In this document: one piece after another, positions 14,440 through 64,000 of the stretch
Layout: every line of letters begins with the position of its first letter
Position numbering within the stretch: the first letter of the stretch is position 1
Assembly: GCF_024323335.1 (NCBI RefSeq)
Contig: NC_066583.1
Location: 17,654,665-17,718,664 of the forward strand
Reading direction: 5' to 3'
Length of the DNA stretch: 64,000 nucleotides
Origin: Lathyrus oleraceus
Taxonomy: Eukaryota; Streptophyta; Magnoliopsida; Fabales; Fabaceae
Notes under the pieces: model-generated
What the model was told of the DNA's origin: nothing
Databases searched by the model: none
What the model saw: only the letters and a program-made list of their open reading frames with translations
Made by a program: the position numbers and the translations under genes

Positions 14440-15440
14440 CGGGGTCATTTACCGATGGCGGCTTCAAAACAAATTTGATATTTAACGATATCAAAGAAAG
14501 CGAGGCCATTTACCGATGGCGGCTTCAAAACAAATTTGATATTTACCGATATCAAAGAAAGCGAGGCCATTTACCGATGGCGGCTTCAAAACAAATTTGA
14601 TATTTACCGATATCAAGGAAAGCGAGGCCATTTACCGATGGCGGCTTCAAAACAAATTTGATATTTACCGATATCAAGGAAAGCGCTACAAGACCAGACA
14701 TTTACCGATGACTGGGAATGAACTCGATGTTTACCGACATCGAACAAAGATGTTTATAAGCAAAACAAGACCAGACATTTACCGATGACTGGGAAGGAAC
14801 TCGATGTTTACCGACATCGAACAAAGATGTTTATAAGCGAAACAAGACCAGACATTTACCGATGATTGGGAAGGAACTCGATATTTACCGACATCGAACA
14901 ATGATGTTTATAAGTGAAACAAGACCAGACATTTACCGATGACAGGGAAGGAACTCGATGTTTACCGACATCGAACAAAGATGTTTACAAGTGAAACAAG
15001 ACCATACATTTACCGATGACTGGGAAGGAACTCGATGTTTACCGACATCGAACAAAGATGTTTACAGATACCAAGGAGAGAAAACATTTATGAAACGAAA
15101 CCATTTACCGATGGCGAAAATGAAATACTCGATATTTACGGATAGCGAAAACACACAGTTGTTTAAACGACAAAACCATTTACCGATGGTTAACAAGCGA
15201 CTGATGTTTACCGACATCGAACAATGATGTTTACCGACACCAAAAAAGGAAAGGACACACACGGGTGTTGACAGAATGATTTTTTTTTGTAGACACCATG
15301 AGAGACATGCCATTTATTGATGGCCAACGATTGGAATTCGACGTTTATCGACATCGAAAGATGATGTTCGCCGACATCAAAGAAAAGCACAGACATTTAC
15401 GGGGACCAACACGACACTTACCGGTATCGCAAGGATGATA
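14440..15440 (-). repeat. Tandem array of hairpins with TCGGTAAA loop in Ogre1 3' UTR
   Basis: On the plus strand the octamer TTTACCGA occurs about 21 times between 14448 and 15237, and degenerate forms continue to about 15430. Each copy is flanked by short complementary arms: CCA/TGG, GATA/TATC, CGATG/CATCG, GACA/TGAC and others. In element sense these are hairpins with loop TCGGTAAA. They are embedded in larger direct repeats of about 60 bp (14440-14690) and about 77 bp (14690-15080). Tandem repeats in the Ogre 3' UTR are known to be hypervariable and a source of satellites. ORFs called here are repeat artefacts. Confidence 0.9.
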
Positions 15441-16801: not shown

Positions 16802-17860
16802 TTATGCGAAGTATTTTTTGACTACATCTGAATTCACAGGAGACGGAAAATCTTCACCATCCATAGTTGTAAGCATCAAGGCTCCACCATAAAAGACCTT
16901 TTTAACAACATATGGACCTTCATAATTCGGAGTCCACTTGCCCCTGTTATCTGTACCGGGAGGAAGGATCCTCTTCAAAACTAAGTCACCTATCTGATAG
17001 CTTCGAGGATGCACTTTCTGATCAAAGGCCTTCTTCATCCTTCTCTGATATAGTTGTCCATGGCACACAGCTGCTAATCGCTTTTCCTCAATTAAATTTA
17101 ACTCATCAAAACTGGCTTGAACCCACTCAGCCTCGTCAAGTTTTACATCCATCATCATCCTCAAAGAAGGGATTTCAACTTCTACTGGCAAGACTGCCTC
17201 CATGCCATACACAAGTGAAAACGGAGTTTCCCCGGTTGACGTACGCACTGAGGTACGATACCCATGCAAAGCGAAAGGCAACATCTCATGCCAATCCTTG
17301 TACGTCACAACCATCTTTTGCACAATCTTCTTAATGTTCTTGTTTGCCGCCTCTACAACACCATTCATCTTTGGTCTGTAAGGAGAAGAATTGTGGTGTT
17401 CGATCTTAAAGTCTTTGCAAAGCTCTTTCATCATCTTGTTATTGAGATTTGAACCATTATCAGTGATGATTCTCTCAGGAACCCCATAACAATAGATAAT
17501 TTCTTTCTTAATGAATCGAGCAACCACTTGTCTAGTAACATTGGCATAGGAAGCTGCTTCCACCCACTTGGTAAAGTAATCAATCGCGACTAGGATGAAG
17601 CGATGTCCATTAGAAGTAGTAGGTTCAATCTTTACAATCATATCAATGCCCCACATCACGAATGGCCAAGGAGAATTCATAATATTCAGAGGGTTTGGTG
17701 GTACATGCACTTTATCTGCATAGATCTGATATTTGTGGCACTTCCGAGCGTATTTGAAACAATCAGATTCCATGGTTATCTAGTAATAACCGGCTCTTAA
17801 CAACTTCTTGGCCATTGCATGACCACCAGCATGGGTACCAAAAGATCCCTCGTGTACTTC
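16802..17860 (-). pseudogene. Ogre1 integrase
   Basis: This is the last domain of pol and would insert the element cDNA into the genome. From the Met at 17773 (323 codons to the stop at 16802) the catalytic triad is complete: Asp44 (WGIDM), Asp105 (TDNGSN) and Glu141 (VVEAANK), with the canonical 35-residue gap. A GPY module (KWTPNYEGPYVV, about residues 280-290) lies near the C terminus, which ends DVVKKYFA. Upstream in the same frame are the zinc-finger histidines (VHEGSFGTHAGGH) and CHKYQ, where relatives have CHKC, so one zinc-binding Cys has become Tyr. A TAG at 17780-17782, where relatives have Trp, and the TAG at 17861-17863 interrupt the frame. Confidence 0.93.
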
Positions 17861-18706
17861 CTACATTAACATGTCTGCTTCGTGTCTAACCACGCATCTG
17901 AGCAGAACCATGTCAAAGTTCCTCTTGTACAACACATCATCCTTGTTCAAGTAAAAGCTTCCAGCTAGCCTTCTCAGTGTCTTCTTGTCATTCTTTGACG
18001 CTCCTTCAGGATGCTCTTGGCTTTTGAGGAAATTCTTAATATTATAAAACCACGACTTCTCATCAATAACAGACTCGGCTGCAAACACATACGCAGGCCT
18101 CTCGAGTCGATTCACAGCAACGTGTGGCACATGATTCTGCCAATGAACTTTGATCATGGAAGACAATGTGGCTAAGGCATCAGCCATTTGATTTTCATCT
18201 CGGGGTACATGATACAACTTTACTGTCTTGAAGAAAGTCAGGATCCTTCTGGTGTAATCTCTAAAAGGAATCAAATGCGGCTGATGAGTATTCCAGTCTC
18301 CATTGACTTGGTTAATCACTAGAGCAGAATCTCCATAAATGTCCATAGTTTTGATCCTTAGATCGATGGCTTCCTCAATCCCCATGATACAGGCCTCGTA
18401 CTCATCTTCGTTGTTGGTTACTTCAAAAGTCAATCTGGCGGAAAAAGGTATGTGTGCACCTTTAGGATTAATGAGTATTGCCCCAACACCATTTCCATTC
18501 ACATTTACCGCCCCATTAAACATCAGTGTCCACTTGTCATCGGGATCCGGTCCTTCCTCGACAAGAGGCTCTTCACAATCTTTCATCTTTAAGTACATGA
18601 TATCTTCATCGGGGAATTCAAACATCATCGGCTGATAGTCATCAATTGGTTGCTCGACAAGGTAATCAGACAGAATACTACCCTTGATGGCCTTTTGCGA
18701 CGTGTA
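17861..18706 (-). pseudogene. Ogre1 second (Tat-specific) RNase H
   Basis: The frame 18628-17861 (255 residues) carries an RNase H typical of the extra domain of Tat-lineage elements, placed between the RT-linked RNase H and integrase. Motifs: LMFNGAVN (residues 36-43), NEDEYEAC (73-80), YGDSALVI (98-105) and ENQMADALA (145-153). The first catalytic Asp of this family (FDGA) is Asn38 here, while the Glu and the other two Asp are kept. The enzyme would degrade RNA in the RNA:DNA hybrid and process primers. The frame continues directly from the RT/RNase H frame after a TAG at 18707-18709, and is closed by TAG at 17861-17863 where relatives have Gln. It is degraded by substitution rather than rearrangement. 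Confidence 0.9.
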
Positions 18707-19200
18707 CTAGATATCATACTCTGTCAAAATCATCTGCCAACGAGCCACTCGTCCGGTAAGAGCCGGATTTTCAAAGATATACTTTACTGGGTCCATCTTA
18801 GAAATCAACAAGGTAGTATGGTTCAACATATACTGTCTCAGTCGGCGAGCAGCCCATGCCAAAGCGCAGCAAGTTTTCTCGAGCAGCGAGTATCTTGTTT
18901 CACAGTCGGTAAACTTTTTGCTAAGGTAGTATATTGCATGCTCTTTTCGACCAGACTCGTCATGTTGTCCCAATACACACCCCATCGAATTCTCTATTGT
19001 TGAAAGGTACATTATCAGAGGCCTCCCAGGAACTGGAGGTATAAGAATTGGAGGTTTCTGCAAATATTCTTTTATCTTATCAAAAGCTTTTTGACAATCA
19101 TTGTTCCACCTGATTGCTTGATCTTTTCTTAGCAATTTAAATATCGGTTCACACGTAGCTATTAGGTGAGATATGAACTGCGCAATGTAGTTCAGCCTCC
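18707..19200 (-). pseudogene. Ogre1 RT thumb/connection and first RNase H-like domain
   Basis: The frame covering 19135-18707 reads through the usual pol sequence after RT: LRKDQAIRWNNDCQKAF, RPLIMYLS, GCVLGQHDESG, HAIYYLSKKF, ETRYSLLEKTCCALAWA and ending LTEYDI before a TAG at 18707-18709 (Gln codon in relatives). The position that holds the first catalytic Asp in ordinary gypsy RNase H is LYLS-like, as expected for Tat elements where this domain is inactive and the additional RNase H supplies activity. It is out of frame with RT because one T is missing in a T run at about 19203-19207. Confidence 0.85.
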
Positions 19201-20275
19201 CTAAAAACCCCGAACCTGCTTTTTCGTTCTTGGTTCAGGCATTTCTTGAATAGCTTTTACTTTCGCTGGATCAACCTCAATCCCTTTCTCGCTGACAATG
19301 AAACCTAACAGCTTTCTAGATCTCACTCCAAACGTACACTTGTTTGGATTCAGCCTCAGTTTGAACTTTCTCAATCTTTCAAACAACTTTTGCAAGTTTA
19401 CCAAGTGCTCCTCTTCTGTCTGAGACTTCGCAATCATATCATCCACGTACACTTCAATTTCTTTGTGCATCATGTCATGAAAGAGAGTCGTCATAGCCCT
19501 TTGGTAGGTAGCACCGGCGTTCTTCAACCCAAATGGAATTACCTTATAACAGAACGTGCCCCAAGGTGTAATGAATGTCGTCTTCTCCATCTCTTCTGGC
19601 GCCATCTTGATCTGATTATAGCCAGAAAATCCATCCATGAAAGAGAAAACCGAGGACTGAGCAGTGTTATCGACCAATACATCAATGTGAGGTAATGGGA
19701 AGTCATCTTTCGGACTGGCTCTGTTTAAATCTCGGTAATCGACAAACATCCTGACTTTACCATCCTTCTTTGGCACGGGTACGATGTTGGCCACCCAAGG
19801 GGGATAATTGGTAACTGCTAGAAAACCTGCATCCAACTGTTTCTGAACCTCCTCTTTGATCTTGACAGCCATATCAGGACTAGTTCTGCAAAGCTTCTGC
19901 TTTACTGAAGGACAATCTTCCCTGAGAGGTAGCCTGTGCACCACAATATCTGTATCCAAACCAGGCATATCTTGATACGACCATGCGAATACATCCACAT
20001 ATTCTTGCAGCATTTCAATTAGCCCTCTCTTGACCTTTTCCTCTAAAGTAGCCCCTATCTTGATCTCTTTCTTTGCGTCCTCAGTACCAAGGTTAATGAC
20101 TTCCAACTCTTCCTGATGAGGTTGAATGACCCTTTCCTCCTGTTTCAATAGTCTGGCCAATTCTTTGGGGAGTTCACAATCTTTTTCACTCTCCTCTTCG
20201 GCTTGGTAAATGGGATTATCGAAGTCATACTGAGCCATAACAAAACTGTTTTTAATGGAATCCGCAAGATCAATT
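19201..20275 (-). pseudogene. Ogre1 reverse transcriptase
   Basis: RT copies the element RNA into DNA. The open stretch runs from the proposed splice acceptor at 20275 to a stop at 19201. Numbered from the in-frame Met at 20295, it has VPKKDGKVRMFVDYRDLN (about 174-191), the first catalytic Asp in FSFMDGFSGYNQI (Asp221) and the YVDD box (283-286). It ends at KKQVRGF, where one missing T makes a stop, while relatives continue FLGRLNY. The region before RT (residues 20-120, DFDNPIYQAEEE onward) is the usual Ogre linker between protease and RT. The Met at 20295 lies within the intron, so the likely start is by splicing rather than initiation here. Confidence 0.93.
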
Positions 20276-20528
20276 CTGCACGAACGGTGTTTCATGCTTT
20301 ATTTTAGAAAAGAGTTCAAGGAAGTCACAAAAAAAACATTGCCATTTTTATTGTTTTGAAAATGAAAGTAATAAAACAGAAAGACAGTGAACACAAATTT
20401 GATTACAAAACGTCCTTTATTGATGATAATCATTGAAAACTCAAAACATGATGTGGCCCTACAATGAACCACTACGCCTTGGGCAGAGGTAGGGCTTTCA
20501 TGCAAAATGAAAAACAGAAGAAAATTAC
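20276..20528 (-). other. Predicted intron between Ogre1 protease and RT
   Basis: In minus sense the segment starts GTAATTTTC right after ACAGA and ends CGTTCGTGCAG, so it has GT/AG ends and an AT-rich body with pyrimidine-rich stretches. The donor lies inside the last codons of pro and removes its TAA (20525-20527). Joining ...CAG ACA GA to A ATT GAT keeps the frame exactly into RT. Splicing at this place is an established property of Ogre elements. These exact sites are my reading of this copy. Confidence 0.8.
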
Positions 20529-21850
20529 TCTGTCTGAAGAGTAACTTGGACTATTTCTTCAACAGTCCAGTTGTTGATCTTCTCCCCTGGAGCACACGGG
20601 CGCACCCAATTATCCATATCACAATCACTGTCACCATCTTCATTGTCTGTTGCAAAGACATCCCCGTGATTCATCAATCCAGCACTAGTGAAAGTGCACG
20701 GCCCTTTCAGATTCTGGACACCCTGCTCTGATGATTGAAAAGGCTGATAACCAATGCCAAACATGTCTTCTTTTATGGGCACATCAATCACCTTGCCCCA
20801 GCCTTCCGCGTTACCCGAATGAATGACCTCTAGAGCTTGTTTATAGGACGCGATCGAGGTACCTGATTTCTTCTGTTCAATACTGACAGTCTCAAAAGCT
20901 TGACATAGAGTTTCATGAATTTTGCCATCCATCTCCACATATTTGAAGGAGGATAAATGGCTCACAAAGATGTCCTCTTCGCCACACACGGTCACAACTT
21001 GACTATCCCACACATATTTTAGCTTTTGGTGGAGAGTCGAAGAAACTGCTCCGTCTCCATGTATCCAGGGATGCCCCAACAGACAACTATATGCTGGTTG
21101 AATATCCATCACATAGAAGACAATATTAAACACTTCCGGGCCGATCTTCACAGGCAACGTGACTTCACCAAAAACCGATCGCTTGGATCCATCAAAAGCA
21201 CGGACAACAAGATCACTTGGTGTGAGAACAACCCCTTCAGCATCAAGCTTACTCAGAGCCTTTTTGGGCAGCACATTCAAAGAAGAACCGGTATCCACCA
21301 AAACATGCGACAAAATGGCGCCTTTGCATTCCATCGTGATATGCAGAGCTCTATTATGATTGCGACCCTTAGGTGTCAAGTCTAGATCCGTGAATCCCAA
21401 ACCATGTCTCGTGTTAACATTTGCAATAACACCTTCAAGATGGTTAACAGAAATCTCTTGACTCACGTAAGCCATATTCAACATTTTCAACAGGGCGTTA
21501 CGATGTGCCTCGGAACACATCAACAGAGAGAGAATAGAGATTTTTGACGGTGTCTGGTTCAACTGATCCACGATCTTGTAATCATTCTTCTTGATAATTC
21601 TCATAAATTCCTCCACGTCCTTCTCAAAAGAACCCTCGGGCACTTCCTTTCACACTGGTTCTTCTTCAACTACAGCTTGTTTTCCTTTTGTTCTAGCAAG
21701 AACCTCAGTATTATTATCCTCCGGAACCTGTGGTGCAAACAAACGACCACTTCTCGTAAATCCTCCGGGTCCTCCCACATTACCCACAACCGAACCATCT
21801 GTTACTGGAGTCTTATTTGACGAACCAATCGTCACTGGAGTATGATTTAC
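20525..21850 (-). pseudogene. Ogre1 protease and flanking linker
   Basis: This is the C-terminal part of the gag-pro frame. The open stretch 21643-20525 encodes 372 residues with the retropepsin active site VLVDTGSSLNVLP (Asp117-Thr-Gly, near 21287-21295), followed by GEVTLPVKIGPEVFNIVFYVMDI and SCLLGHPWIHGDGAV, the usual flap and C-terminal protease segments. It would cleave the polyprotein. The reading frame is the same as gag, interrupted by TGA at 21851-21853 and TGA at 21650-21652. About 180 residues after the protease form an acidic linker up to the intron donor, where the frame would join RT. Confidence 0.9.
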
Positions 21851-23893
21851 TCATCTGGTCTGATTCTCTGGTCTTCTATTTCTGCAAAAAGCATTGTCAT
21901 ATTGCCATGGAATTGTTATACTATTCTCAAAAAGTCTTCCACTAGAAGCAACAATGGTGGTAGGAGTACTGACAGTTACTGGAGCATTAATAATCACAGG
22001 AACACCAACAGTCACCGGAGCAGATATGGTCACGGGCGCAGCTATGGTCACGGGAGTACCAATAGTCACAGGCGTACTAATAGTTCTTGGAGCACGTACA
22101 GGACCTTATGACGGCGTAAAGTAAATGGTAACAGTCGATACCTCTTCACGGTCATTCACTACTCGATCAAACTGTAAACAACCTTCATCCATCAATTCCT
22201 GGATACCTTCTTTCAATTTCACACAGCCGTATTCATGATTACGGCAATCTGAACAATTCTTGTCACATCCCGGGAATACTCCCCCTCTAAGCAGACGTTC
22301 CTTCACTACAAACAACGAAGTCTGAACATCATTAATATTGACTACCAAGTTCAAATTTTCCCCATCTTCCACACCATTTACTCTGGGCCCTCCATGCTGA
22401 GGCATAGGATTATTCACCACATTCGGAGTAGGACCAAAGTTAATCATCTTGGCATCAATCAAATCTTGAACTTTATGGTGAAAAGCCCGGTAATTCTCGA
22501 TGTGGTGCCCTGGCACACCAGAATGAAAATCACAACGGACATTAGCATCATAAACAACGGGAATCCTTGTTAATGGAGCCATAGTGCGAAGTTCAACAAA
22601 CTTTAACCTGAGTAGTTCAGGGAGTAATTCAGCATAAGTCATTGACAACGGATCAAAATGACAATCTGGCATACTTTGTCTTGGTTGGAATTGGCGTTGT
22701 TGTTGTTGTTGTTGTTGTGGTTGTCCTCTTTGTTGTTGTTGAGGTTGGGTTGCTGGAATAGTCACAATAGAAACTTGACGGTATTGTTGTCCTCTGTTTC
22801 CATTTCTCTGATTATGTATAGCATTTATCTCACCCTCTCTCCTTCTGGGTGCCCCTGAAAACGGTTTCTTAGCACTTGAAGAACTTGAAGAACCAGGGTC
22901 TTGGATTTTTCCCGCTTTGATAAGACTTTCAGTTCTTTCTCCGCAAATCACAACATCCGAAAAACTACCAAATGGGCAACTTCCCATACGATCCATGAAT
23001 ACACCTTGCAGGGTTCCAACGAACATATCAGTCAATTCTCTCTCCAACATCGGAGGTTGTACTCTCGCAGCTAGTTCACGCCACCTCTGGGCGTATTCCT
23101 TGAAACTCTCACGGGTCTTTTGAAACAAGCTCTGCAACTGGGTTCTGCTCGGAGCCATGTCCATGTTATGCTTGTACTGCCTCAGAAAAGCTTCACCTAA
23201 CTCTCTCCAGCTTCTGACAGATTCTTTTTTCAAGTCCATGTACCAATCCAAAGAGGCTCTAGACAAGCTGTCTTGGAAAAAGTACATCCACATTTTTTCA
23301 TCATCAGTATAAGCGGATATCTTCCGGTAGTAAGCTTGCACATGAGTTCGGGGACAAGAAGTGCCATTGTACTTGTCGAAAGATGGCACTTTGAACTTGT
23401 ACGAGATCCTCAACCCATCAACTAAACCCATGTTAGTAACATCAAAGCCCAAAGAATTCTGACACTCCATGGCGCGAATCTTTTCAGCAAGGGCGTCAAC
23501 CTTTCTATCTCTCTCTTCCGCCTTTCCAAATTCATCATCATCACTGAGAATAGTTAACATATCTTCTTGCTTGTCAACCAAATGAGAAGGATGGTTAACT
23601 AGAGCACGTGTCGCTCGAGCATTAACAACCTCTGTAATGATGGTTTGTCCATTGATTCTAATACCACGCAATTCGTCACCAGTAGCATAGTTGTTGACAG
23701 GGCTGGTAGCAGCAGCGGTGTCATTGACAGGGGTTCCTTCTGGCGGATTCTGACCGATAGGGGGAATCATAGTTTCTTTTCTCTAGACCAAGGCTCGGAT
23801 TTCCTCTTGCCCTTGCACTACCCCTTGCATCATATTCATGAACTGGGCCATGTTGGTCCTCATCTCTGCTAGATCTGCTTGAAATTGATCCAT
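21851..23893 (-). pseudogene. Ogre1 Gag
   Basis: Structural protein of the particle. The likely start is ATG at 23891-23893 (MDQFQADLAEMRTNM...), because the frame continues into the long open stretch 23770-22106 through one TAG at 23783-23785 (codon 37). Counted from the Met at 23770, the retrotransposon gag core lies at about 125-265 (WMYFFQDSLSRASLDWY, FLRQYKHNM, YAQRWRELAARV). A Gln-rich stretch is at about 345-370, and a zinc-knuckle-like CDFHSGVPGHHIENY is at about 425, with Tyr where relatives have the last Cys. After TAA at 22106-22108 the frame continues with a PVTI/APVTV repeat region (22105-21880) before the protease. Confidence 0.9.
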
Positions 23894-24298
23894 GGTCTTC
23901 TGTTGATTCTGCCTTGTTGCATAACGGTGCGGACGATACTCAGTAATCCTGCCTGAAACGGGAACAAGAATGAGAAATCCTCTTCAAGAACACCTGTAAT
24001 GATGCAAGAATGATATGTGTATGATGCGTATGCTATGTTTTATCATTTCTCAGGTATTCAAGAGTCTCGTCCACCTTTGAAAAATGGCAACCTGCACCCG
24101 TAAGCGGAACATAAACAACAAAGAAGCAACATACACTGGGCGGCAAGCAAAAGTGAAACATCAATAATCTCATCCATAGACATAAGAAATAAGGTTCATA
24201 CAAACATGGTTCAAGCAAAGATTTAGTTCATCAGTGTAGAACAAGGAATCCCACCCAACAATTCTGGAGGTGATTCTCAAAATAAACAACAAGACAAA
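23894..24298. other. Spacer between Ogre1 ORF1 and gag
   Basis: About 400 nt without a meaningful reading frame, separating the end of ORF1 from the gag start. I see no promoter or second splice signal that I could defend. Confidence 0.5.
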
Positions 24299-26018
24299 CT
24301 AGGGAAGTCGTCCTTCAGGAATGAGAGTCTTCAAATACTGGCACTGATCCATCAATCGGTCACACTCTGAAAACTCAGGTAGAGGGGTGAGTTTCTCTTT
24401 CAGTTGCACCCTGAGTTCAACAACTTCCTCTCGAAAATGAGATGCACGGAAGTCACTTCCTCTGAGTTGGCTCTCTGCTGCATGCCTCAGATCTACCTCT
24501 TTCTTCAACTGAGTATCTTTGTCCTTAAGCTGTCTTTCCAAGTCTCGTATCTTCCTTTTGTAATTGGCTTCCGCTTTTTGTAATCTCAAGCGTTCATGGT
24601 GTTCTTCATCCCACATTGTTTCTATCTCATCATAGGACCTCTTTTTTGTTTCCCGATCTACTAGAACTTTTACCTTGCACTCCTTTGAGTTTATGAGCCA
24701 AATTCAACCTATCAGCTTTTGCTTTGTAAAGCTCCATTTGGATCTCTTGTTCATTTTCTTTCAACTGGCGATTCTCCATTAAGGCTTGTTTGTAATACTC
24801 AGCAGGCACACTCTCAGAAAGGATTAAAGGCAGTTGCTTCTGTAATGGTTCCATCCGGTCATATGGTAGCAACAAAGTCCCAACTCTTTCCTTGACTCAC
24901 TCAGTGTAAGCAGGCATAGCAATTGCAAACTTCCTCCCTAAAACAGATCCATCTTTTATACCAATATTCTCCCAAGCTTTTCCCACTTGCTCCAATCTTG
25001 CTGGATCGCTCTGTTTCTCAAAGTACACATTTTCAGCTATCTCGACATCTTGCGGCCTTTCATTCATGACAAAAGCCAACTGACGGAGAGAAAGAACCGG
25101 GTTGTAGTTGATGCAACCCCTAGTTCCTATGAGTGGAGCATTGCGAAACTCTCCACAACTCATAATGATGTTGCTCACATTAATCCTATAAGCTTGCCAC
25201 TTGATATTATAAGATGTGAGCGACATGATCCTCTGAGTCCATTTGTGAGTATTCTGAGTATCCACAAACGGTCCATTGGTTTGTAGAAAAGACAAGAATC
25301 ACTTGAGTAGCAACAGGAGATAACACCTGATAGCTCCACACTTACCATGCCTGTTGTGTATCGCATAATAGGTGTCAGCTAACAAGGTAGGCACCGGGTT
25401 TCCTCCAATGAAAATAGTGATTGCTGCCAGGTCCACGAAACTAGGCATACTAGGGAACAAAATAACTCCATAAATCATGACAGCCAACTGAGCGTTGAAA
25501 GCTACCCAATTTCCTTTCTTTGCTTCTTCTTTAGCCATCCTTACCAATAACTTCAAGGATAAGCCCACAACATCACCGCTTGGTTTCCAATTATCGCTCA
25601 CCTCCTTGATGCTCAAGTAAAGAGCCTTAGCGACAACTTTGAAATCCACCTCCTTTGGCACATCCAGGAAAGGTACTCGATTTTTGATTCTGACATTCAT
25701 AAGAATGGAATACTCTTCAAGAGTGGGAGCTAGCTGGTAGTCCTGAAAAGTAAAGCAACGAAGCTCCGGATCATAGAACTGTAAGAGAGTCTGCAGAGGT
25801 ACCGGATCAACCACTATCTTCAACAATGCCAAGATATCCCCATACTGATCATCAAAAACTTTCTGATTACTGTCGGTCACGAGATTACCCAATTCTTCCA
25901 AAGATGTCAACGGCTCACGGTAAAAGCTGTAGGTGCAAGTCTTCCTCTTCAACTCTGGAATGGCAGTCATCTCTCGGTGTGAACAGACTCCTGAATAAAC
26001 CTGAAAAATGATATGCAT
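24299..26018 (-). pseudogene. Ogre1 ORF1 (function unknown)
   Basis: This is the Ogre-specific ORF between leader and gag, about 570 codons. It starts at the first Met of the open frame (26018). The N-terminal half (239 residues) carries FYDPELRCFTFQDYQL, PTLEEYSILMNVR, GVILFPSMPSFVDL and NPVPTLLADTYY. It continues in frame through a TGA at 25299-25301 (Trp in relatives) and a TGA at 24897-24899. It then shifts frame at an A-run (plus-strand T-run 24641-24646). The C-terminal part is a strongly charged coiled coil (RKIRDLERQLKDKDTQLKKE... and RVQLKEKL) ending before 24299. There is no enzymatic motif. Similarity to plant mobile domain helices is a weak impression. Confidence 0.85.
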
Positions 26019-26717: not shown

Positions 26718-26719
26718 GC

Positions 26720-44867: not shown

Positions 44868-46603
44868 TGATGCGTGGTTTTCGCAAGTATACGAACGCGT
44901 CAGAGTAATATAAAAGATTATCGAATCCACAGAGACCAAGTGTCAATCTATCGTTATCTGTTGTTATGGTGTTTATCAAAGGCAATCAAAATAAGTGTTT
45001 TTGGAGTGTGCAATGAAAAGTAAAGTGTTGAATAAAGATTAATTAATAAAGACAGGGTTGAATGTAATTCACATAATTAATTGATAATCCAAGTACTTGC
45101 TAATAGAGCTACTTATGGGCAATGTTTCCTACTTTGAAAAGAACTAATTTAATAGGAACTGTCGCTTTCGCGTATTCAGAACCGAGTTGTACTCCCTAAT
45201 CAAACCCTCTTATATTCACTTATAAAAAGGCGCGCATTGCGTTAGAGTAGTAAACCTATTTTTAAGAAATATAGTATCTTGACTAAGTTGAAAAGTATTA
45301 TAACTTGGATTTCTTAACCAAAAGAGGTTCTCACGAACCAGACTCTAAACTTATAAACGCGTCCGAAAATAGTTTTAAAATCTCTTTTCTTCTTTATGTT
45401 AAAAACTCCTAATGAACTAGACAAAGCGCTTTCGCTGTTTTTGAAATAGTTAAAAACAATTAAGTTTAAAAAGACGTTGGACGGCTTTCGATCTTACCCA
45501 ACGGAATTGAAGTGCGGGAAAACTTAAGTTGAAAGTTAAAATAGCCCTTAAGTGTTTCTACGAACAATTGTACGGATTATCGGTTCAATTACGATCCTTA
45601 CATTCTAACCTTTTGGATTTAGTTAGACATGGTAAAGTAAAAGTGCATTAAAGTAAATAAAAGTAGTGCGAGTGCGGAAAGTAAATAAAAGTAGTGCGAG
45701 TGCGAGGAAATAAATAATTTAAAGCGAGTGTGAGGAAATAAATAATTTAAAGCGAGTGCGAGGAAATAAACAAAGTAAAGAGAGTGCGGGAAATAAATAA
45801 TTTAAAGCGAGTGCGAGGAAATAAATAATTTAAAGCGAGTGCGAGGAAATAAACAAAGTAAAGCGAGTGCGGGAAATAAATAAAGTAAAGCGAGTGCGGG
45901 AAATAAACAAAGTAAACCGAGTGCGGGAAATAAACAAAGTAAAGCGAGTGCGGGAAATAAATAAAGTAAAGCGAGTGCGGGAAATAAATAAAGTAAAGAC
46001 AAGTAATAAATTAGCGGCAGGATTAACTTCCTTCCAAAGTGCTCCAAACTCGATTACAGACTCTATCACAGACTTGATTACACAATTGTGGTAACACTCC
46101 AATGCGAAGCGATTACCACTATAAAATACTGAATATATGCCTAAGTGAAACAAATTTGCTTCCGAGTTTACCTTTGTTCTAAGTTTGGATGATTGTAAAA
46201 GTGAATTCGCGTTTCTATTTATAAGCAAGTAAAAAGATTGAAATGACTTGGATGCCCTTCAACTTGAAAATAGGAGGGAACCGTTTTTCCTCTTGTGGCA
46301 CCCGCCACAAGCACAAAATGGGGCGTCTTAGTGGAAGTAGTGGGAAAATATGGGAGTTGATGGAAGTTGAATTTGACACGTCATGACAGGGTCTATGGCG
46401 CCAGCCATGGGGTAGGCCACAAGAAAAAATGCTGAATTTTAGGGTTTTTAGCCCTTTTTCACTCCTTTTCTCGATCGCGAATCCGATTAAAGTAAAAACC
46501 TGAAAACAAAGGAAAACATAGAAATAACACAACAAAATAACAATAAAACAACTAGAATGCATGTGAAATCGGAGTCGAAAATACGTAAATTTCAGTGTTA
46601 TCA
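44868..46603 (-). repeat. Athila element 5' LTR
   Basis: 1,736 bp, near-identical to the 3' LTR apart from scattered substitutions and two indels. It contains the 27-bp array (45655-46000) and a TATA box at 46216-46223. Confidence 0.95.
46216..46223 (-). promoter_or_regulatory. TATA box of the Athila 5' LTR
   Basis: TATAAATA on the minus strand, about 380 bp from the LTR start in sense direction. Confidence 0.65.
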
Positions 46604-53806: not shown

Positions 53807-56800
53807 TGTCGCATCACGCGAAAAACCGGCGGGAAAAGAAGAAACAACAGAGCCGCCACCGTGCGTTATTTATCCCAAAAGAGGGAAAGGAAACGCTCGA
53901 AGTAAACCTAGGAAAGAACATGGTCTCGCGACCAAAGAGAATGGGTTCGGGAGTCGGTTATGCGAAGGGAAGGTATTAGCACCCCTACGCATCCGTCGTA
54001 CTCGACGGGATCCACGCACAATATGAAGGGAAAATGGTTGCTAAAAACTGCTCAAACTCACACACACTGGCTGAAAGAGACGAAAGAAACTGACTGAAAC
54101 TGACTCGGCTGGATATCGCATCCTGGGCCTACTTAGTCTATCAAGCATAGACATCAGAGTCCAAGTAGTTCGGACTGGGGAAACGACACATGCTCGCTAG
54201 GATATCGCGTCCTATGCATACGTATCTTCTCGGACGAGAGAAGAATCAGAGCATTCGTAGCTCGGCTGACACGCACACAAACAAACAGACAAAGGCAAAC
54301 GTGAAGCCCGAATGCCAATCACTGGACTTACATCAGCATCCGAACCTAAACACACACACACTAGAACCCAAATGCCACTCGATGGACTTACATCGGCTTC
54401 CAAGCACACAACAACACAACAAGTTAATAGGGAGTCGGGGACTCGAGCCTATAACTGTCAAACAACACACACAAAAAAGAAAAAGGGCGCCCGGAGAGAT
54501 CAGCTCAATCTCCTGCCTACATACTTCATCTGGTATGAAGATCAGGGCGGTGTAGTTCCCCTACGCAGGGAAAAAGGACTAGCCTAACCAGATAACAGAG
54601 GGAGACACAACACTAGGGAGACTACGACTCGAGCCTAGATGTTGTCATGCAAAGTCGTCCCTAAGTTAAGGTTTCTAGCTAACTTGCCCAGGAGGCAAGC
54701 CTATCCTAAACATGACTTGCACAGGAAGCAAGCCACACACAAACCTAACTTGCACAGGAAGCAAGGGTCTCGATTGCAACTAGGGCAAGAGAAAGGGGAG
54801 GTCTCAATCGCAACGAGGGCGAGAGAAAAGAATTAGTGTTAGTTGTTAGTCAAACTCGACAAGACATCGCATCTCGTGCCTACGTATCTCATCTGGACAT
54901 GAGAATCAGAGTTGCCGTAGTTCGACTGAACTATTACGGTTGGTTTGTGTTTTTTAAGTGGACAATGTCACTGCACAATCTACCTGATGCTCGACCTTTG
55001 GAGACTTACTCACCTGTAGTAGAAGGAGTTAACGTATCCTTAAGAGGGGATGATGTTTGTTTGTGTTTTAAGAAAGCGCAAGCAAGAAAGGAAGTCCTAT
55101 ACGAAGGAACCGTGCTACCTTAATTGACATGCAAACGAGACTACGCGGAGTCTAACAAACCTAGGGGATACAATCACACCACACAAGCACCTACAGCATA
55201 AAATAAACACACCAACAAGGGGCTCAAACATGGGTTAGGTTTTAGTCGAGGGGTCACATCAACCTCAACAAACAAACCACTGGAACTGGGTAGTGTTAGC
55301 TCTTAACCTTGCCATTGAGGGGCTAAGGTGAAGCAGATGAAAGGTGATGAGGGGTGTGCCTCATTGCTCTTATCCCTGGCCAGGGAGAGCATTTGACAAG
55401 AATGTGCGGGTTCAGAAAGTGGGAACCCTTCTACACATTTGATACTGACTCAACTGTACAATTGTACAAGATCTTGGGTTTGTATCTGCCATGCATCAAC
55501 ACAGTGGTGTGAGCAAAGCAGAAGACACACAGAATAGCAGGGGATAGGTTGCTTATCCCTTGGTTCTGCCAATTGCCTCTTCACTTAGGAGGTCTTTGAC
55601 TATGTACAAGGACAAATTAAACATACACAAACATTGCCTCTTAAGGAGGACTTCAGACAGTTGCCTGGCCAAGTAACAGGTCAGGTCTTCCAGACTACAT
55701 GAAGATTAAGGGATATACCTCAATGCAAATTGCTTATACAAGCAAAGCAAAGCAAAAAGTTCACAAGGAACTAAGCAACTAAAAGCACCTGAAATAGTCA
55801 AGCAGATGTTAGTATGCAACTTAAATCAAAGCAAAAGGAGACAGACATTAACAGCTAATCAGAAGCATGTGTATGTGCAAGGCACAAGACTTAGGCATGT
55901 GAGCCAAGTCACCTACAAAACAAACAAGGTTAAACAATGATATTCAAGCAAACTCAATCAAAGATAATTGGCCTCATTGGTCATTTTGTTGGTCAACCTG
56001 AAAACACAAGCTCAAAAGTGAGTAACAGGACCACTAGGGCAAGCCTAGGGTCAAAAAAGAATGAAAAAGTCAAAACAGCAAAGGGAAAGCATTCAAAATC
56101 ATGTTTAATCAATCAAGAAACAATTCCAATTGGGTTCATGTTCATATCATGCATCATTATCATTTCATAAGCAAAAGAAGTCAAAGCATGGCAAATGAGA
56201 GCTCATAGAAGTCAACAGAAAGACTTACATCAAAAGTCAACTCAAACATTTCCAAAAATCACCAAATAAATCATGATCAATCCTAACACATAGCATGGTA
56301 AGAATGTCAAATTTCATCACATTTGGACAAGTGGAAGGCAGTCAATGAAAATCAGAAAGTCAAAGCAATTTTGAACATGCTTAAGGAAGTCAACCAAACA
56401 TGTATCAACTTAGAAAAATCATAAATCAGAGATGGTGTATGATAAATGAATGGGACTAAAACCATGGCAAAGATGAGGATGTCTAGTTATCTCATGCAAA
56501 ATTTCATGTCCATCTAATAAAGTATGAGGATTTCACAAATGAAATGGCAACATGCATCATAATAAGTCCACATTTTGGTCAAACAGGAGAGAAAATCTCA
56601 AACAATTAGGAAATGGCATAATTAATTCCAAGAAAAATCACAAGTGAACTAGACATATAAGAGTAGGTTCATGCAAAAAATCAGTTCATTTAGAGGTCAA
56701 GAAGCATGGATACAAAAATCAGCAATTTGCACATCCATGGTGTGACACAAGTTGTCACACCCTACTTCAAAAATTCACAACTCTCAAACCACATAAGATA

Positions 56801-58992
56801 AATTCATGATCTTTACATCAAAATAAACATGGATGAGTGTAGATTAAGCACAAAAAATTTCAGATCAAATGGATAAGGCATCACAATTTCACAATTGAAT
56901 TGGCAAGAGGTACAAAATGTGCATACATGTTACAAATCCTAATGCCAAACAAAAACCAATGATCAAAAAATTCTGGAAAATTTATGATAAAAAAGTAGAG
57001 ATCATGATGAAGATGATGCAAAAATTCTCACTAAATTTGGATTTGAAATGGATGATTTATGAATTTTCAAAGTTGGAGTTCAAAAAAAAGGAAATAAAAT
57101 GAAAAATGACAATTTAATTCAATGGGACACATGCCCCGAGTGGCAAACTTGTAAATAAGCCCACCACTTAACAAAACGACCACGTTTAGGATGTTGGAAC
57201 GAAATAACGCTATTGGCCAGCATGGGCCAACAGTGCCATGCGCACGACTGTATCATCTTCTGGGCAGTGCATGAAGAAATCTAGGGTTTTCTGGGCAACA
57301 GATACAATGTTCATCATCCCCAAATCGTGCTCAACAAAATTTTCCCAGAAATCTCAATTGAATACACACAAATACTCAGCAAGCTACCAATAACATGAAT
57401 CCAGCAATGATTTTCAATAAAACACAGTACATATCATAAATCGAGCAAGAATCGAAAACAACATTAAACTTCATTTCAGTGTAACTTCATGAATATCCAA
57501 CCATTTTCGAAAATAAAAGCATCATGAAGCTCAGCATGAAGAGATCTACACTAAGCATAGCATGGATTTGAGAAATAGAGAGATCGATTTCTTACTTGTT
57601 CTGAAGAGCAGATGAGATTCGATGGTTGTTCGGATGTTTAAGCTTGAAACAGGTGCTCACACAGCTTCCACAAGGTGAATGGTGAAGATACTTGGGCCTG
57701 AAACAACTTGAAACAGCTTCACTCGACCTTTGCCATGGATGATGCTTGGAAAGAACAGTCCAACAAAAGCTTTTTACAGTTGAAGAATGATAGTTGAAAT
57801 GGGCCTAAAATGATGCTTGGATGATGGAACAACAAAGGTATGGTCGTGGCCTTTGGGAGTTTCTTGCAGATTTTTGAAATGTCAAGAAATGGATTTTTGA
57901 GAGAGTGAGTGATTTCTGAGTTTGGAGGCTGCTGCTAGGGTTCACAATCACTCAGAAAAATCTTCTTATACTTCTGTTTTAACTCTCTTAATGCAATGCT
58001 AATCAAGTTTTGCTCAATTGAAACAAATTGCTAATTTGCCAATTTTGACCAAATGGTGGTGTGTGGTAGTATGAGCACGAAAATGGGCCCTTGGCAAGTC
58101 ACAAATAACATTCTGAACTAATTCCAATTGGTCATTTGGATGGAAATTACTTAATTCAAAAAGTCAAAATTGCACCTCACTTGAAATTAAACATGATAGT
58201 TCAAAAAGGGCCATTTTGATTGGCAATGTTTTGGCACATGAAATTTACATTTTTGGAAAGAGGAGGTTAAATGTGGTTTGTAGGAAAAAACCTCACCAAT
58301 TTTGGCCAAATGGTTTGAGAGATATGGCCTTTTGAAGTTCAAGATTTTGTGAAAATGAATTGATCATATCTTGACAACCATACATGGGAATTGAGAGTTC
58401 TTGGACTTTTTGGAAATGGGAGAACAAGATCTTCAACTTTCATGTTGGGCAAAAATTCATTTGAAGCTTGTATCATGATGTAAGTTTGGGATCAAGAAGT
58501 TTCCATTTTTGGCAGTAAAAATTACAGGTCCAGTTTCTATTTTTGGAAATTTTCTGTTTTGGCTTCAAATTCTTCAATGATGATGTTTGCCATGATATAT
58601 GAGGCCTATTGGGACATGAATAAGCTCTCTCAAACCAAATCCATCCATCAAAACCATAAAATCAACCACAGTTGACCAAGTTTGACTTTTTAGGGTTTCT
58701 GACTGATTGCGCATTGAATGATGACCCCTGAGCATCCAATCTTTGACCTAAACACTTCAAATGGATCCCCAAGTCATGTGAACATGTTGGACCAACCCTA
58801 GGGCCTTGGCTCCTTGAGAATTGTGCTTGCTTGCTTGGTTGACTGATCTCCTGATCAATTTGACCTAATTCTCTTGATTTGCTTGCACTTGAGGCAACTG
58901 GGACAATGCAATGCTATGCAGTGGACCATGATATGCTATGACCTAATATGAAAATGTATGTACAATGATAGGTGCAAATTTGAGGTGCTACA
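53807..58992 (-). repeat. Ogre3 3' LTR
   Basis: 5,186 bp from TGTAGCACCTCAAATTTGC (sense start at 58992) to GCGACA (53807). It shares with Ogre1 the start, the GACTATGCC...GGCAATTGCC and CTTGGGCT-type blocks and the R-U5 layout, but is clearly diverged. It lacks the CTCGCTAGGCGAG cluster where Ogre1 has it. It contains three R-region hairpin modules (54200-54265, 54505-54560, 54860-54930) and the U5 motif TGGCGGCTCT (53849-53858). Confidence 0.9.
54110..54930 (-). repeat. Three R-region hairpin modules in Ogre3 LTR
   Basis: Hairpin A copies: TCTTCT...AGAAGA (54225-54244), CTTCAT...ATGAAG (54524-54540) and TCTCAT...ATGAGA (54887-54904), each next to a TACGTAT or TACATAC word and a CGTAG(C/T)TCG word. 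Hairpin B-type words GGATATCGCATCC, AGGATATCGCGTCCT and AGACATCGCATCT occur near 54112, 54199 and 54862. Confidence 0.8.
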
Positions 58993-59009
58993 GCTGCCCC
59001 TATTCAATC
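58993..59009 (-). other. Ogre3 polypurine tract region
   Basis: The minus strand reads GATTGAATAGGGGCAGC before the LTR start, identical to Ogre1. TATTCAATC (59001-59009) can pair with GATTGAATA at 59066-59074, as in Ogre1. Confidence 0.75.
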
Positions 59010-59119
59010 AGCTGGGAACCCGAACGGATGATAGCAATGGCTGTCAGACTTTCAGGGTAAACAGGGATTGAATACCAAAAGAACCGTAGAAATTTGCACC
59101 GACTGGTTATAATAAAAAG

Positions 59120-60360
59120 AGAACCACGTCATTTACCGATGACAACCGCATGACAACTTCAGAAAAGCAAAACCATTTACCGATGGTTAGAAACTGGAAA
59201 CTTGATATTTACCGATATCAACTTCAGCGAGACCATTTACCGATGGCTGCTGGGAAAACAAACTTGAAAAAAAACAAAACCATTTACCGATGGTTGAAAC
59301 TGGGACCTTGATATTTACCGATATCAACTTCAGCAAGACCATTTACCGATGGTTGCTGGGAAAACAACTTCTGAAAAGCGAAACCATTTACCGATGGTTG
59401 GAAAACTTGATATTTACCGATATCAACTTCAGCAGGACCATTTACCGATGGTTGCTGGGAAACAACTTCAGAAAAGCGAAAACCATTTACCGATGGTTAA
59501 AAACTTGATATTTACCGATATCAACTTCAGCAAGACCATTTACCGATGGTTGCTGGGAAACAACTTGGTGCAGAAAAGGAAGCAAGACCATTTACCGATG
59601 GTGGCTTCTAGGTGACTTGATATTTACCGATATCAACTTCAACAAGGCCATTTACCGATGGCTACTGCAACTGGGAATTCGATATTTACCGATATCGAAG
59701 AGAACTGGGCCATTTACCGATGGCATCTCCGCTTGGGGAGGGACAAAATCTTTGTGGTGGAACCAGACAAGACGTTTACCGACGACTTCTGGGGATCTTG
59801 ATTTTATTAACAAGAGAACAAAGAATGATCAGACATTTACCGATGACTGGGATGAGACTCGATGTTTACCGACATCGAAAGATGATGTTTACCGACATCA
59901 AAAGAATGACCAGACATTTACCGATGACTGGGAATGAGAAATTTACTGGGGGAGAGACAAACAAATATTCACAACTGGAAACCAGATAGGACATTTACAG
60001 ATGACTCTACTGGGGATTTCTAGCTGGGGATTATCAGACATTTACCGATGACTGAGAGAAAGACTCGATGTTTACCGACATCGAAAGATGATGTTTACCG
60101 ACATCAAAAAAATGACCAGACATTTACCGATGACTGGGGTGAGACTCGATGTTTACCGACACCGAAACAATGGCGTTTACCGACACCAAAAAATGACCAG
60201 GCATTTACCGATGACTGGGTGAGACTCGATGTTTACCGACACCGAAACAATGGCGTTTACCGACACCAAAAAATGACCAGACATTTACCGATGACTGGGT
60301 GAGACTCGATGTTTACCGACACCGAAGCAATGGTGTTTACCGACACCAAAAAAATGAAAC
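59120..60360 (-). repeat. Tandem array of hairpins with TCGGTAAA loop in Ogre3 3' UTR
   Basis: About 35 copies of plus-strand TTTACCGA between 59132 and 60343, each between complementary arms: GTCA/TGAC, AACCA/TGGTT, TTGATA/TATCAA, TTCGATA/TATCGAA, TCGATG/CATCGA, TGATG/CATCA, TGGTG/CACCA. The larger repeat unit and spacing differ from Ogre1. ORFs called in it are translations of the array. Confidence 0.92.
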
Positions 60361-63300
60361 ACACGCGGGTGTTGACATGACACTTACTGGTATCACCAAA
60401 AAAATGACATCTTAGATACGTCAAAGTAAGGTTGATCACTTGCTGGGGGTCTCACTGAGGAGAAACAAACTTTCTGTCACCAACGGGTGAGGAAATAAAC
60501 CTCTGTGGGGATATCAATCCTGAATACTGTCAGGAGCAACTGTAGCAGACGTGTTGTGCTGATGTTGAACAGAATGATCCGCCTCTGCCGGGGATACGGT
60601 CTGATGGGGTTTTGAACACATGGATGCATATGTTTGAATTTTTCTATGGCATAATGCTCCATATGGAATGGAAATGCTACGCGGTTTTGAGGATGCAATG
60701 ATTACTATATGCAAAATGCAAAATGATGAAAACTCCGCTGGGGAAATACACAGGACGACTGTGCTGAGAAACCTTCAATACAACTCCGCTGGGGGGAAGA
60801 ACAAGGCAACTGTCGGGGAACCAATCAATACAACTCCGCTAGGGGAGGACAAGGCAACTCGCTGGGGAGTAATAAAGTAGCTTGCTACTGACAAAAGTAA
60901 AATTGCTGGGGATATCCCAGTCAATCCACAGGTAGGATAAACTCCGCTTGGGGAAATAGCTGCTCCGCTGGGGAAGATAAACCAGGAAACTCTCTGGGGA
61001 CAAGGCTCATACAAACCTCAGATACGATAAACTCTGCTTTGGAAAATATCTGTTACTCCGCCGGGGACGACCCATGCAATCCACAGGTAGGATAGACTCA
61101 AGCTGGGGATGCAGATATCAGTCTGCTACGGGAATTCGTCCAATCCATTGGTAGGATGAACTCTGCTGGAGAAAACAATCGAAAGATTGACCAAAGAGTG
61201 CATGAGATATATTATCTATAGCCGTCAAAAACGTAGATAATACACTCGCATGGAAGATTATCCATAACCGGGTTGCAGGTTGTTAAATGGATAAACAACC
61301 GAAAAGAAAGGCATCGGTACCAGGACTAGGTATGCAAAGATGACCAATCAAAAGAGGATAAAGTTGCTAACTCGGAGCAAATATCCAAAAAGAAGGGGAA
61401 GACCCAAAGGGGACAATACTGTTTGATCAAGGCAAGTATCCAGAGGGGAAAAGAAATCAACACCGCAAACCGGATACTGATAACTGCAAGGAGGGGATTA
61501 CATCTACCGGTTTGTAGGTAGAAAACCACGGAAAAGTAACCAGTCATCGATAGGATGAGCACACAGGGTTAACTCCACCAAGGGGATGAAAGTGGGATTT
61601 TACAACTACCAGCTAGTGGGTAGAAAACCACGACGATAGGACTTACAACTACCGGTTTGTAGGTAGAGGCCAACAAATGATCTACTGAGAGACAGAGTGA
61701 GAAAAAAGGATTTACAACTACCGGGTAGTGGGTAGAAGACCGTAAAGAAAGGACTTACAGCTACCGGTTCGTAGGTAGAGGCCCCCAAATAGAATGAACC
61801 ACAAAGGTTACCTCTGCTAGGGGGTGAAAGTGGGATTTTACAACTACCAGCTTGTAGGTAGAAAACCACGACGATAGGACTTACAACTACCGGTTTGTAG
61901 GTAGAAGCCAACAAATTCCGCTGAGGATAAGATGAATGAGTGTCGGTTAGTGAGCGACTATTCATTTATGCCCCAGGGAAGCACAGGAGACAGCCAACAG
62001 GAAGCCAATTTAGGATCGATCCAAAAAGGCAGACTGAAACAAGACTCATCCTAATGAGGAAAGAACTCAATAGGGAAAAACCCATCCCAATGTGTGTTGG
62101 GGGGAACGGAAACAACCGTCATCCACGAGGATGTATCTCAGTGGGGAAATGGCAGGAAAGGATAGACACTTTTTGCTTAAGGGGTTGGCTCTACATGGAG
62201 AGATCAGACACACCCATATCTGCTAGAGGAAAATCTACTGGAGAGATTCTTATCACCAAACAGCAGGAGGCAACAATCAACAGATACATGGCAACAGCTG
62301 CAACATGAGTATCTGAATGCTATGATTATGCATGTATGCTTTATACCTAAAATGTATGATGAATGTTGACAAACAGACATGCTCAAACCACAGGTCCGGG
62401 AATCGATCATCCGGAGAGCAAAACCAAAGTCACCAGAGAGCCAAGAAAATCCACTGGAGACTGGGACAATAGGGAACAATCATCATCCTGCAGGGGAGGA
62501 AGGCCACCAGAGGCTTCCGGAGGGATCGTCGGTCACAACCGGAGAACAGAGTTCAACATACTGGCGGACGCGCCACAACAACTCGTGCTGGAAATCAGAG
62601 ATGCCAAGGAGCAACCAGATCTCTGATGAGGATAGATAGGCATTGAGAAAGCTCATCATGCCAACAACTTCGCTCGGGGATCTATCTGAGGACATGATGG
62701 AGCACTGGGATGTCAATCCATAAAATACCGAATCTTCCAAAGAAAGGCACCCATGCTGGTGGAGAGGAGAAGAATGCTCTGCTGGAGAGGCGAAAGTTGA
62801 AGTCTTCGGTAAACGCTCTGCTAGGGGAACTGCCCCACAATAGTATTTCAACAGCAACCTTGTTGGGAATGCCCCTCGGTAGGGCTCAAACAAACCTCTA
62901 CTGGAAATGCCCCACGATAGGGCTAACAGGGACTTGGAGGAAGAATGTTGTACTGCCGGGTAACTTCAACCAACACTGCACTGAGCAACCTTGCTGAGGA
63001 GAAACCAAAAGAGGTTCGACAGGAGAAAGATAAAGTTATGCTCGAGATACGAACAAATGTCTTACCTGTTGGTAATCATACCACCCTCGGGAGAGCACTG
63101 CGGATCTCCTAAGTATCCTTCTATCATCGTGAATGTTCACTTTGTTTAAGAACAATTTTTTTTGAAAAATTTGTTTATTTTGAGAAACAATGATACTTTA
63201 TCAATTAAAACATGCAAAACATTTGTTGAGTTGAAACAAATAGGAGTGCAAATAATTGGATAAAAGCTCAAATTGATGTGATGGAATGGTAGTCTGCAAA

Positions 63301-63684
63301 GGGCGAGACTCCATAGATCTGTACAAGTTTGAAATCGGTGATATATATTGGAGAGGGCTACATTGAACATAATGACCTTTCCTCTACCATTCCGAATTTT
63401 CAATGTATTCAAAGCTTCAGTCGACGACGAATCGAGAATCCCTGACGGATGACAGATATAGAGCACAGTCTTGTCAAGATGCAGTTACTTGCCAAATCCC
63501 TAATTTTTGCCTAGATTGCCCCAGTGTGAGGTGATCAATCTAGCGGGATGCAAACTCTTTTTTCAATGTCTCTAACTTTTGCCTGGATCGCCCTTTCGGG
63601 TTTTCAATCCACCGAGACACTCCTTTTTGCCTAAGTCGCCCTTTGGGGTGTTCGACTTAGCGAGCTGTTTTGCTTTTTTTTCTT
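60361..63684 (-). other. Remaining Ogre3 3' UTR, repeat-rich
   Basis: No gene. From the left it holds a hairpin-containing block conserved with Ogre1 (60650-60690), many AACTCCGCTGGGGAA-like words (60720-61170), a second set of small hairpins with CTACC/GGTAG or ATCC/GGAT arms (60924-61900), further GCTGGGG- and TACTGG-type words to about 63000, and repeats of the CC.TTTCGGGTTTTCAATCC type beside the integrase stop (63560-63670). Confidence 0.65.
61500..61910 (-). repeat. Repeats with CTACC...GGTAG hairpins in Ogre3 3' UTR
   Basis: About seven diverged units of a TTACAACTACC...GTAGGTAG type are visible, with loops such as GGTTTGTA, AGCTAGTG and GGGTAGTG between CTACC and GGTAG. They are separated by GAAAACCACG or GAGGCCAAC words. 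Confidence 0.75.
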
Positions 63685-64000
63685 TTAGGCGAAGTATTTC
63701 TTGACTGCATCAGAATTCACAGGACAAGTGAACTTCTCCACCCATTGTTGTAAGTGTCAAAACATTGCCTGAAAAGGCTCTCTTGACAACAAATGGACAT
63801 TCATAGCTTGGAGTCCACTTGCCCCTGGACTCGGGCACGAAAGACAAGACTTTCTTGAGCACAAGGTCCCTCGGAACACACGAGGCTTGACCCTCTTATC
63901 GCGTGCTTTCGTCACTCTCTGCTGATGTAACTGACCATGCTACATGGCAGTTGATCTCTTCTTTTCGATTGGATTCACCTGGTCATAGTGACTCTGAATC
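63685..64000 (-). pseudogene. Ogre3 integrase C-terminal fragment
   Basis: Minus-strand translation gives GVHSKL-like sequence before the GPY module region, then WTPSYECPFVVKRAFSGN and LTLTTM, parallel to WTPNYEGPYVVKKVF...LTTMDGE of Ogre1. It ends PVNSDAVKKYFA and TAA at 63685-63687 after a one-base shift. The GPY motif reads CPF. The beginning of the domain is outside the window. Confidence 0.85.

Follow-up and report, generated by a model that had tools for sequence, protein, structure and literature searches.

Arrays of fixed-loop hairpins with compensating stems in the 3' UTR of pea Ogre retrotransposons: a probable multivalent element of the sense RNA

Tandem repeats in the 3' UTR are a known trait of Ogre/Tat LTR retrotransposons (Macas et al. 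2009, as cited in the Discussion of PMC7004042), as the original prediction for the present locus noted, and passages of the same paper treat them as arising incidentally from strand transfer or recombination and as seeding satellites. Other Ogre traits are a tRNA-Arg primer-binding site and a spliced intron (passages of PMC2206039 and PMC6317226), the intron being spliced in part (passage of PMC6317226), and the share of Ogre in the pea genome has been estimated at 20-33% (passage of PMC2206039). The locus analysed here raises the question of what is maintained in a 3' UTR repeat that presents one loop dozens of times on stems of changing sequence, and in which strand. The window, that is, the whole stretch of 64,000 nucleotides that was analysed, lies in a 3.795-Gb genome at G000:C5:17654665-17718664. 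About 35 hairpins with one fixed loop had been predicted, and 35 exact copies of TTTACCGA were found at 59132-60343, every one on the plus strand; in element sense the loop reads UCGGUAAA. Across the window TTTACCGA occurs 58 times against 1.62 expected (sd 1.37), comprising these 35 copies, 21 in a second array outside the original prediction and two lone minus-strand sites (18906 and 62806). The features of the main array are:

59132..60343, minus strand: hairpin array with 35 exact loops in the 3' UTR of an Ogre-type element
59127..59144, minus strand: hairpin closest to the 3' LTR, sense stem TGTCA/TGACG
60331..60348, minus strand: hairpin closest to the integrase, sense stem TGGTG/CACCA
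59994..60001, minus strand: loop variant TTTACAGA (sense TCTGTAAA) on a perfect inner stem of 2 bp
60152, 60232 and 60312: irregular stem CGATG/CACCG
60176 and 60256: irregular stem GGCG/CACC
59163-59661: tandem unit of 98 bp (TRF), inside the main array
60035-60353: tandem unit of 80 bp (TRF), main array
58993..59009, minus strand: purine-rich run, a putative polypurine tract judged from sequence
about 58992, minus strand: inferred start of the 3' LTR, TGTAGCACC, directly after the purine-rich run

Both irregular stems have the predicted polarity, sense being the minus strand, and the loop variant TTTACAGA recurs in 17 of 44 sampled arrays. A search of 58900-60500 against Rfam 15 returned no family match up to E 1. 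Five open frames of 92-142 codons traverse the main array antisense to the element (plus strand, 59206-60302), likely as a by-product of a stop-free repeat, and a further tandem repeat of about 50 bp with CTCCGCTGGGG cores lies between the main array and the integrase (plus strand, 60731-60859).

The assignment of the sense strand draws on the following features of the array-bearing element and of a neighbouring Ogre at 9-32 kb:

14448..15237, minus strand: second hairpin array, with 21 exact loops, in the 3' UTR of an Ogre that retains every coding domain
14429-14685: tandem unit of 61 bp (TRF), second array
14681-15064: tandem unit of 77 bp (TRF), second array
16802..26018, minus strand: Ogre coding frames (DUF7745 ORF, gag, protease, RT, RNase H, integrase), with the second array downstream of them
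63703..63999, minus strand: integrase fragment of the array-bearing element (two overlapping tblastn matches), also present in the adjoining region L050

The 9-32 kb Ogre has the order gag-pro-RT-RNase H-integrase on the minus strand with the extra DUF7745 ORF ahead of gag; its protease match is below Pfam's cut-off, and between its RT and INT frames sits an RVT_3 domain, with RH and aRH treated as one. Long LTRs in the form of direct repeats 17.7 kb apart flank these frames, with blocks between 9010-13935 and 26718-31665 that are 91-96% identical and place the LTRs approximately. Given the minus-strand frames and the flanking direct repeats, the array at 14-15 kb follows the integrase and precedes the 3' LTR, and its tandem repeats thus occupy the interval that characterizes an Ogre 3' UTR. 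For the element that bears the main array, the integrase fragment shows that the array follows integrase in the sense direction, and gag fragments (tblastn) were found on the minus strand within 1.5 kb past the window end, in L050. Minus is therefore taken as element sense, both from these upstream integrase and gag fragments and from the neighbouring Ogre frames. Queries for RT, RNase H, protease and ORF1 gave no tblastn match in window positions 56001-64000 or in L050, so the array-bearing element looks internally deleted; across 60360-64000 and L050 its integrase and gag fragments are about 0.8 kb apart. In the matched parts the two elements share 42-52% (gag) and 32-60% (integrase) amino-acid identity, and a 162-bp stretch over the LTR start and putative polypurine tract is 86% identical between them. 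The arrays of these two diverged elements share one loop and have stem classes in common. Elsewhere in the window, 27-bp tandem repeats occur in two copies 11.9 kb apart (33706-34050 and 45654-45998), which flank ATHILA-like ORF-1 and pol frames and apparently belong to that element's LTRs.

The arms on either side of the loop had been predicted to compensate each other in pairs, and they do. When right arms were re-dealt among the units, a procedure that ignores the kinship of units, the main array was expected to show 88.7 paired cells (sd 9.3; maximum 116 in 2000 re-deals), compared with 172 of 210 observed; the second array showed 100 of 126 against 60.0 (sd 6.8). Arm complementarity is thus far above that of shuffled flanks, the comparison fixed in advance. 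Sliding the register of the main array by 1-3 columns reduced pairing to 20-53% of cells. The 35 hairpins collapse to 17 distinct 5-bp stems, in which 90.6% of 85 cells are paired against 63.4% (sd 3.5), both-side changes fall in 31 cells against 11.6, and the covariation score is 0.866 against 0.362, none of 500 shuffles being as high on any of the three measures. Both-side changes occur at all five stem pairs, a count that is itself no excess in these stems (5 against 4.4; 247 of 500 shuffles), as is the number of further pair types (12 against 11.1; 193 of 500 shuffles). The U-A at the loop ends, as a sixth pair, is uninformative for the window because it is invariant there.

Can duplication of a few units account for this pattern? 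The array units are kin by duplication, so copies are not independent events, and the statistics were computed without a tree. One reading of the data holds that a few founder hairpins happened to carry G-U rather than A-C flaws and were amplified, without selection. Units clearly do duplicate, as the tandem 98-bp and 80-bp units attest, and hairpin types are correspondingly not independent. To that extent the objection raised with the original prediction stands, yet this single array holds 17 distinct stems with paired changes at all five positions, and we regard amplification of chance founders as very improbable.

The pattern ATTTACCGAT, a gap of 5-30, and GTTTACCGAC occurs 17468 times genome-wide (8959 + 8509), compared with none in a reversed control; for other hairpins the reversed-sequence control was discarded, as reversal preserves palindromes. 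A sample was assembled from loci L001-L030 and regions L031-L049 and L051-L070 (contig C1, 1.6-30.8 Mb) together with L050 beside the window, from which identical 128-base contexts and sites less than 60 bases from a locus end were removed. Filtering left 920 sites, of which 918 fall in 44 arrays of at least four hairpins and two were dropped; 42 of the arrays are from C1, where a search pattern that includes the loop located them, and the remaining two lie in the window. These arrays hold 4 to 38 hairpins each, and all comparisons are within one plant genome. A second pass, in which identical contexts were retained, accepted loops with up to two changes and at least three of four inner pairs, and yielded 1171 instances, 946 of them with the exact loop. 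Six further arrays from C2-C7 (106 hairpins) have mostly the stem classes of the C1 sample; their A-C count (seven copies of one type) is biased and was kept out of the totals, since these arrays were picked via an A-C hairpin.

Across the 44 arrays, 268 distinct 8+8 arm pairs have 254, 237, 186, 210 and 162 Watson-Crick cells at positions 1-5, against 144, 135, 75, 176 and 67 when re-dealt, and on 527 distinct arm pairs pairing reaches 84.6% in register against 12-42% when slid. The commonest stem class, GTCA/TGTC, has a U-U mismatch at pair 3 and is present in all 44 arrays, and its repaired forms GTCA/TGAC and GACA/TGTC occur in 18 and 13 arrays, respectively. Neighboring loops are 23-34 nt apart in 532 of 874 cases in these arrays, and examples of the spacers are U-rich in sense.

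Pairing alone leaves the strand undefined, as both strands fold well. The two array halves gave folding z-scores of -2.16 and -2.97 in sense and -5.88 and -4.12 in antisense, where the loop UUUACCGA is drawn with further pairs, and only 19 of 56 hairpin types present in at least two arrays are more stable in sense. Folding energy was accordingly rejected as proof of the sense strand, since it favours the antisense, and the argument rests instead on which imperfections persist. One transition in a stem creates a G-U pair in sense (A-C in antisense) and the other does the reverse, so that unselected decay should yield both about equally. Genome-wide, in counts that are copies rather than events and lower bounds for repeats, sense G-U and A-C number at least 4139 and 80 at position 2 (GATG class), 6351 and 30 at position 3 (CGATG class), and 10380 and 403 at position 4 (CCA class). 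Position 1 (GATA/GATG) runs in the opposite direction, with lower bounds of 228 G-U and 511 A-C copies; among exact-loop sample copies the numbers there are 2 and 6. Both flaws at position 1 are rare and mostly single among the places listed, as if neither had been propagated. Over positions 1-4, exact-loop sample copies comprise 244 G-U and 24 A-C, and G-U exceeds A-C in 43 of the 44 arrays, with one tie.

The four-corner table of the sample, which counts copies and admits loops with up to two changes, points the same way in the following squares. Position 4 has 90 ACCA/TGGT, 92 GCCA/TGGC, 80 G-U (GCCA/TGGT) and 1 A-C; position 3 has 145 GATG/CATC, 62 GGTG/CACC, 115 G-U (GGTG/CATC) and no A-C; and position 2 in the GATA class has 110 A-U, 20 G-C, 22 G-U and 2 A-C. 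Two squares go against the rule, position 1 of GATA/GATG (1 G-U, 5 A-C) and position 3 of TGAC/TGGC (1 G-U, 4 A-C). The predicted inequality of G-U and A-C by strand was thus borne out, and the broader claim of selection on sense RNA structure is supported by the covariation and by the G-U excess at positions 2-4, an excess that position 1 does not share.

Counts of types rather than copies are less one-sided. Among 67 four-pair types, those in at least three arrays have 7 G-U and 2 A-C cells and those confined to a single array have 21 and 12 (p 0.69), a null result for array sharing that is compatible with amplified chance founders. The 17 types that are repeated inside a single array have 10 G-U and no A-C cells, compared with 21 and 16 in the other 50 (Fisher two-sided p 0.0098, a split picked after the array-sharing split). 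Against such founders, five G-U types in the four-corner squares are found in at least 10 arrays each, while no A-C type is found in more than five. Private one-step stem changes are even, 15 types leading from Watson-Crick to G-U and 14 to A-C, the other private one-step types being 17 other mismatches, 48 loop changes and 34 unassigned. Shared spacer variants (17 groups, 195 positions) are balanced, with 13 C>T plus A>G and 14 G>A plus T>C, so the sense G-U excess among shared variants does not reflect a general strand bias; private spacer variants, uncorrected for composition, are uneven (7 and 27, respectively).

At least 13 of the 403 A-C copies at position 4 come from one 10-kb block, C1:247417619-247428043, in which the spacing is a multiple of 62 bp in 11 of 12 cases. 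The block is apparently a satellite of hairpin units that was expanded at the DNA level, and may serve as a natural control without RNA selection.

The polarity of the flaws also bears on two further explanations. Quasi-palindrome template switching can copy one arm onto the other and keep stems perfect without selection; the mechanism is described, and compensatory changes are possible in one step (passages of PMC8794818). The switch from A-U to G-C at position 1, with few intermediates of either kind, agrees with it. At positions 2-4, in contrast, G-U intermediates are plentiful and for the most part have the sense polarity, a stepwise and strand-specific pattern, and conservation of the loop is not accounted for, which makes mutational repair an improbable explanation of the whole. 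A signal in the DNA itself, such as cruciforms or palindromic protein-binding sites, would agree with the good folding of both strands; a strand-specific G-U preference is meaningless for duplex DNA, and the arms vary freely in sequence, as protein-binding half-sites do not, so that we give this explanation very little credence. From the covariation and the G-U excess at positions 2-4 we conclude, with good confidence, that pairing is selected in the sense RNA.

The loop shows a constraint of its own. Changes of C2 to T and of G3 to A are the two products of a single loop CpG, yet their fates are unequal, TTGGTAAA having 12 copies in 10 arrays and TCAGTAAA 74 copies in 28 arrays; among private one-step changes the gap narrows (5 and 9). 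Position 3 is also found as T (49 copies, 17 arrays) and as C (9 copies, 8 arrays), and position 4 as A (19 copies, 14 arrays), while single changes of U5-A6-A7 are limited to at most three arrays each. The U-A loop ends also occur as C-G, in CCGGTAAG, with 18 copies, once each in 18 of the 44 arrays, which may represent a single event. The outer loop U-A probably pairs, leaving a hexaloop C-N-G-U-A-A with a tolerant second base, and the variant spectrum marks C-N-G-U-A-A as the likely constrained loop. Small C-N-G loops are read by protein in the CNGG loops of Smaug/Vts1 targets and in the hexaloops of iron-responsive elements. The Ogre loop shares the C-N-G start and has U, not G, as its fourth base, so that the likeness is one of resemblance only. 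Pumilio, iron-responsive-element and Smaug loops were weighed as candidate identities and were not adopted; nor was U1-snRNA-like pairing of GGUAAA, which has the look of a 5' splice site. Kissing between the loop and sense TTTACCGA elsewhere was likewise rejected, the two lone minus-strand sites at 18906 and 62806 being about the chance number.

The main rival to selection on the element is drive at the level of the repeat during reverse transcription, in which hairpins in the template make reverse transcriptase pause or jump and units with stable stems in the sense RNA duplicate more often, at no benefit to the element. Sense polarity is expected here too, since the template is the sense RNA, and the range of array sizes from 4 to 38 hairpins and of tandem units (61, 77, 80 and 98 bp) suits such a process. 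Drive by itself leaves unexplained why the loop is fixed except at one tolerant base and why the two CpG products fared unequally. Moreover, jumping within the common loop predicts chimeric arms, and just 26 of 887 hairpins with standard arms depart from 13 listed pairs; of the 12 off-list combinations, 8 are each confined to a single array, and the most frequent, GATA/TGTC, seen in 7 arrays, differs from a listed pair by one G-U substitution. We consider such selfish units rather unlikely, if less so than the other alternatives.

Our preferred reading, held with moderate confidence, is that the array is a multivalent cis-acting element of the Ogre sense (genomic) RNA. Each unit would be a stem of 4-7 bp, free in sequence and required to pair, that displays the fixed loop UCGGUAAA; a trans-acting RNA-binding protein would read the loop, and the many copies would confer avidity. 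The fixed loop, the paired but free stems, the sense polarity and the high copy number fit a multivalent RNA ligand, and reading of the loop by a protein seems reasonably likely. From its place between integrase and 3' LTR the array should occur in both unspliced and spliced transcripts, a position that would suit either packaging of genomic RNA by Gag or export or stability of intron-containing RNA. The likeliest reader would be the Gag of the element itself, which would tag the genomic RNA for packaging, an assignment that in this specific form is still doubtful. The C-terminal part of the Gag of the 9-32 kb Ogre has, in translation, a C-x2-H-x5-H stretch similar to a variant zinc knuckle, and a scan of the window's Ogre Gag detected no standard zinc knuckles. 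The next choice would be a host factor that exports or stabilises intron-containing RNA, by analogy with retroviral transport elements, which sit near the 3' LTR. More tentatively still than the multivalent element as such, we picture dozens of near-equivalent hairpins, each selected for sense pairing and for C-N-G-U-A-A, a dedicated loop-binding protein whose response is tuned by copy number, and satellite-seeding "hypervariable repeats" that are worn copies of this array.

Repeated stem-loops that share a loop and vary in their paired stems, as found here, are a trait of packaging-signal arrays. In satellite tobacco necrosis virus, short stem-loops with the loop AxxA have been proposed as packaging signals read by the coat protein, and share with the Ogre array a common loop motif in variable structures; they are dispersed over the genome, whereas the Ogre hairpins are clustered in a retrotransposon 3' UTR, and the source itself weighs against those stem-loops as packaging signals in vivo (passages of PMC6475782). 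The CTE of MPMV and the direct repeats of RSV serve export of unspliced RNA and, unlike the Ogre array, are not described as fixed-loop arrays in the passages concerned (PMC3856414). The Ogre/Tat repeats of PMC7004042 are, in its relevant passages, alike in kind of element, place, variable tandem units and role as a satellite source; the paper calls them hypervariable, and its main text contains neither "hairpin" nor "palindrom". The motif letters do not occur in the main text of either PMC10027222 or PMC7004042, a literature search by these letters gave nothing evidently on Ogre by title among the matches listed, and the sole hairpin passage of PMC3290532 concerns tandem repeats of Silene. 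In titles and abstract openings of Ogre and LTR-repeat literature, among the matches listed and mostly non-subscription, the present hairpin design was not found. What appears to be new is the fixed-loop hairpin design; tandem repeats of Ogre 3' UTRs and the satellites that they seed were already known.

If the proposal is true, the arrays would amount to a naturally occurring collection of one RNA ligand in thousands of variants and offer a direct route to the reader protein. They would also make a case for reading RNA-level selection from the statistics of repeats, with satellite copies as a possible control. For the Ogre family, repeats that are selected RNA structures would give a purpose to a region long known as hypervariable.
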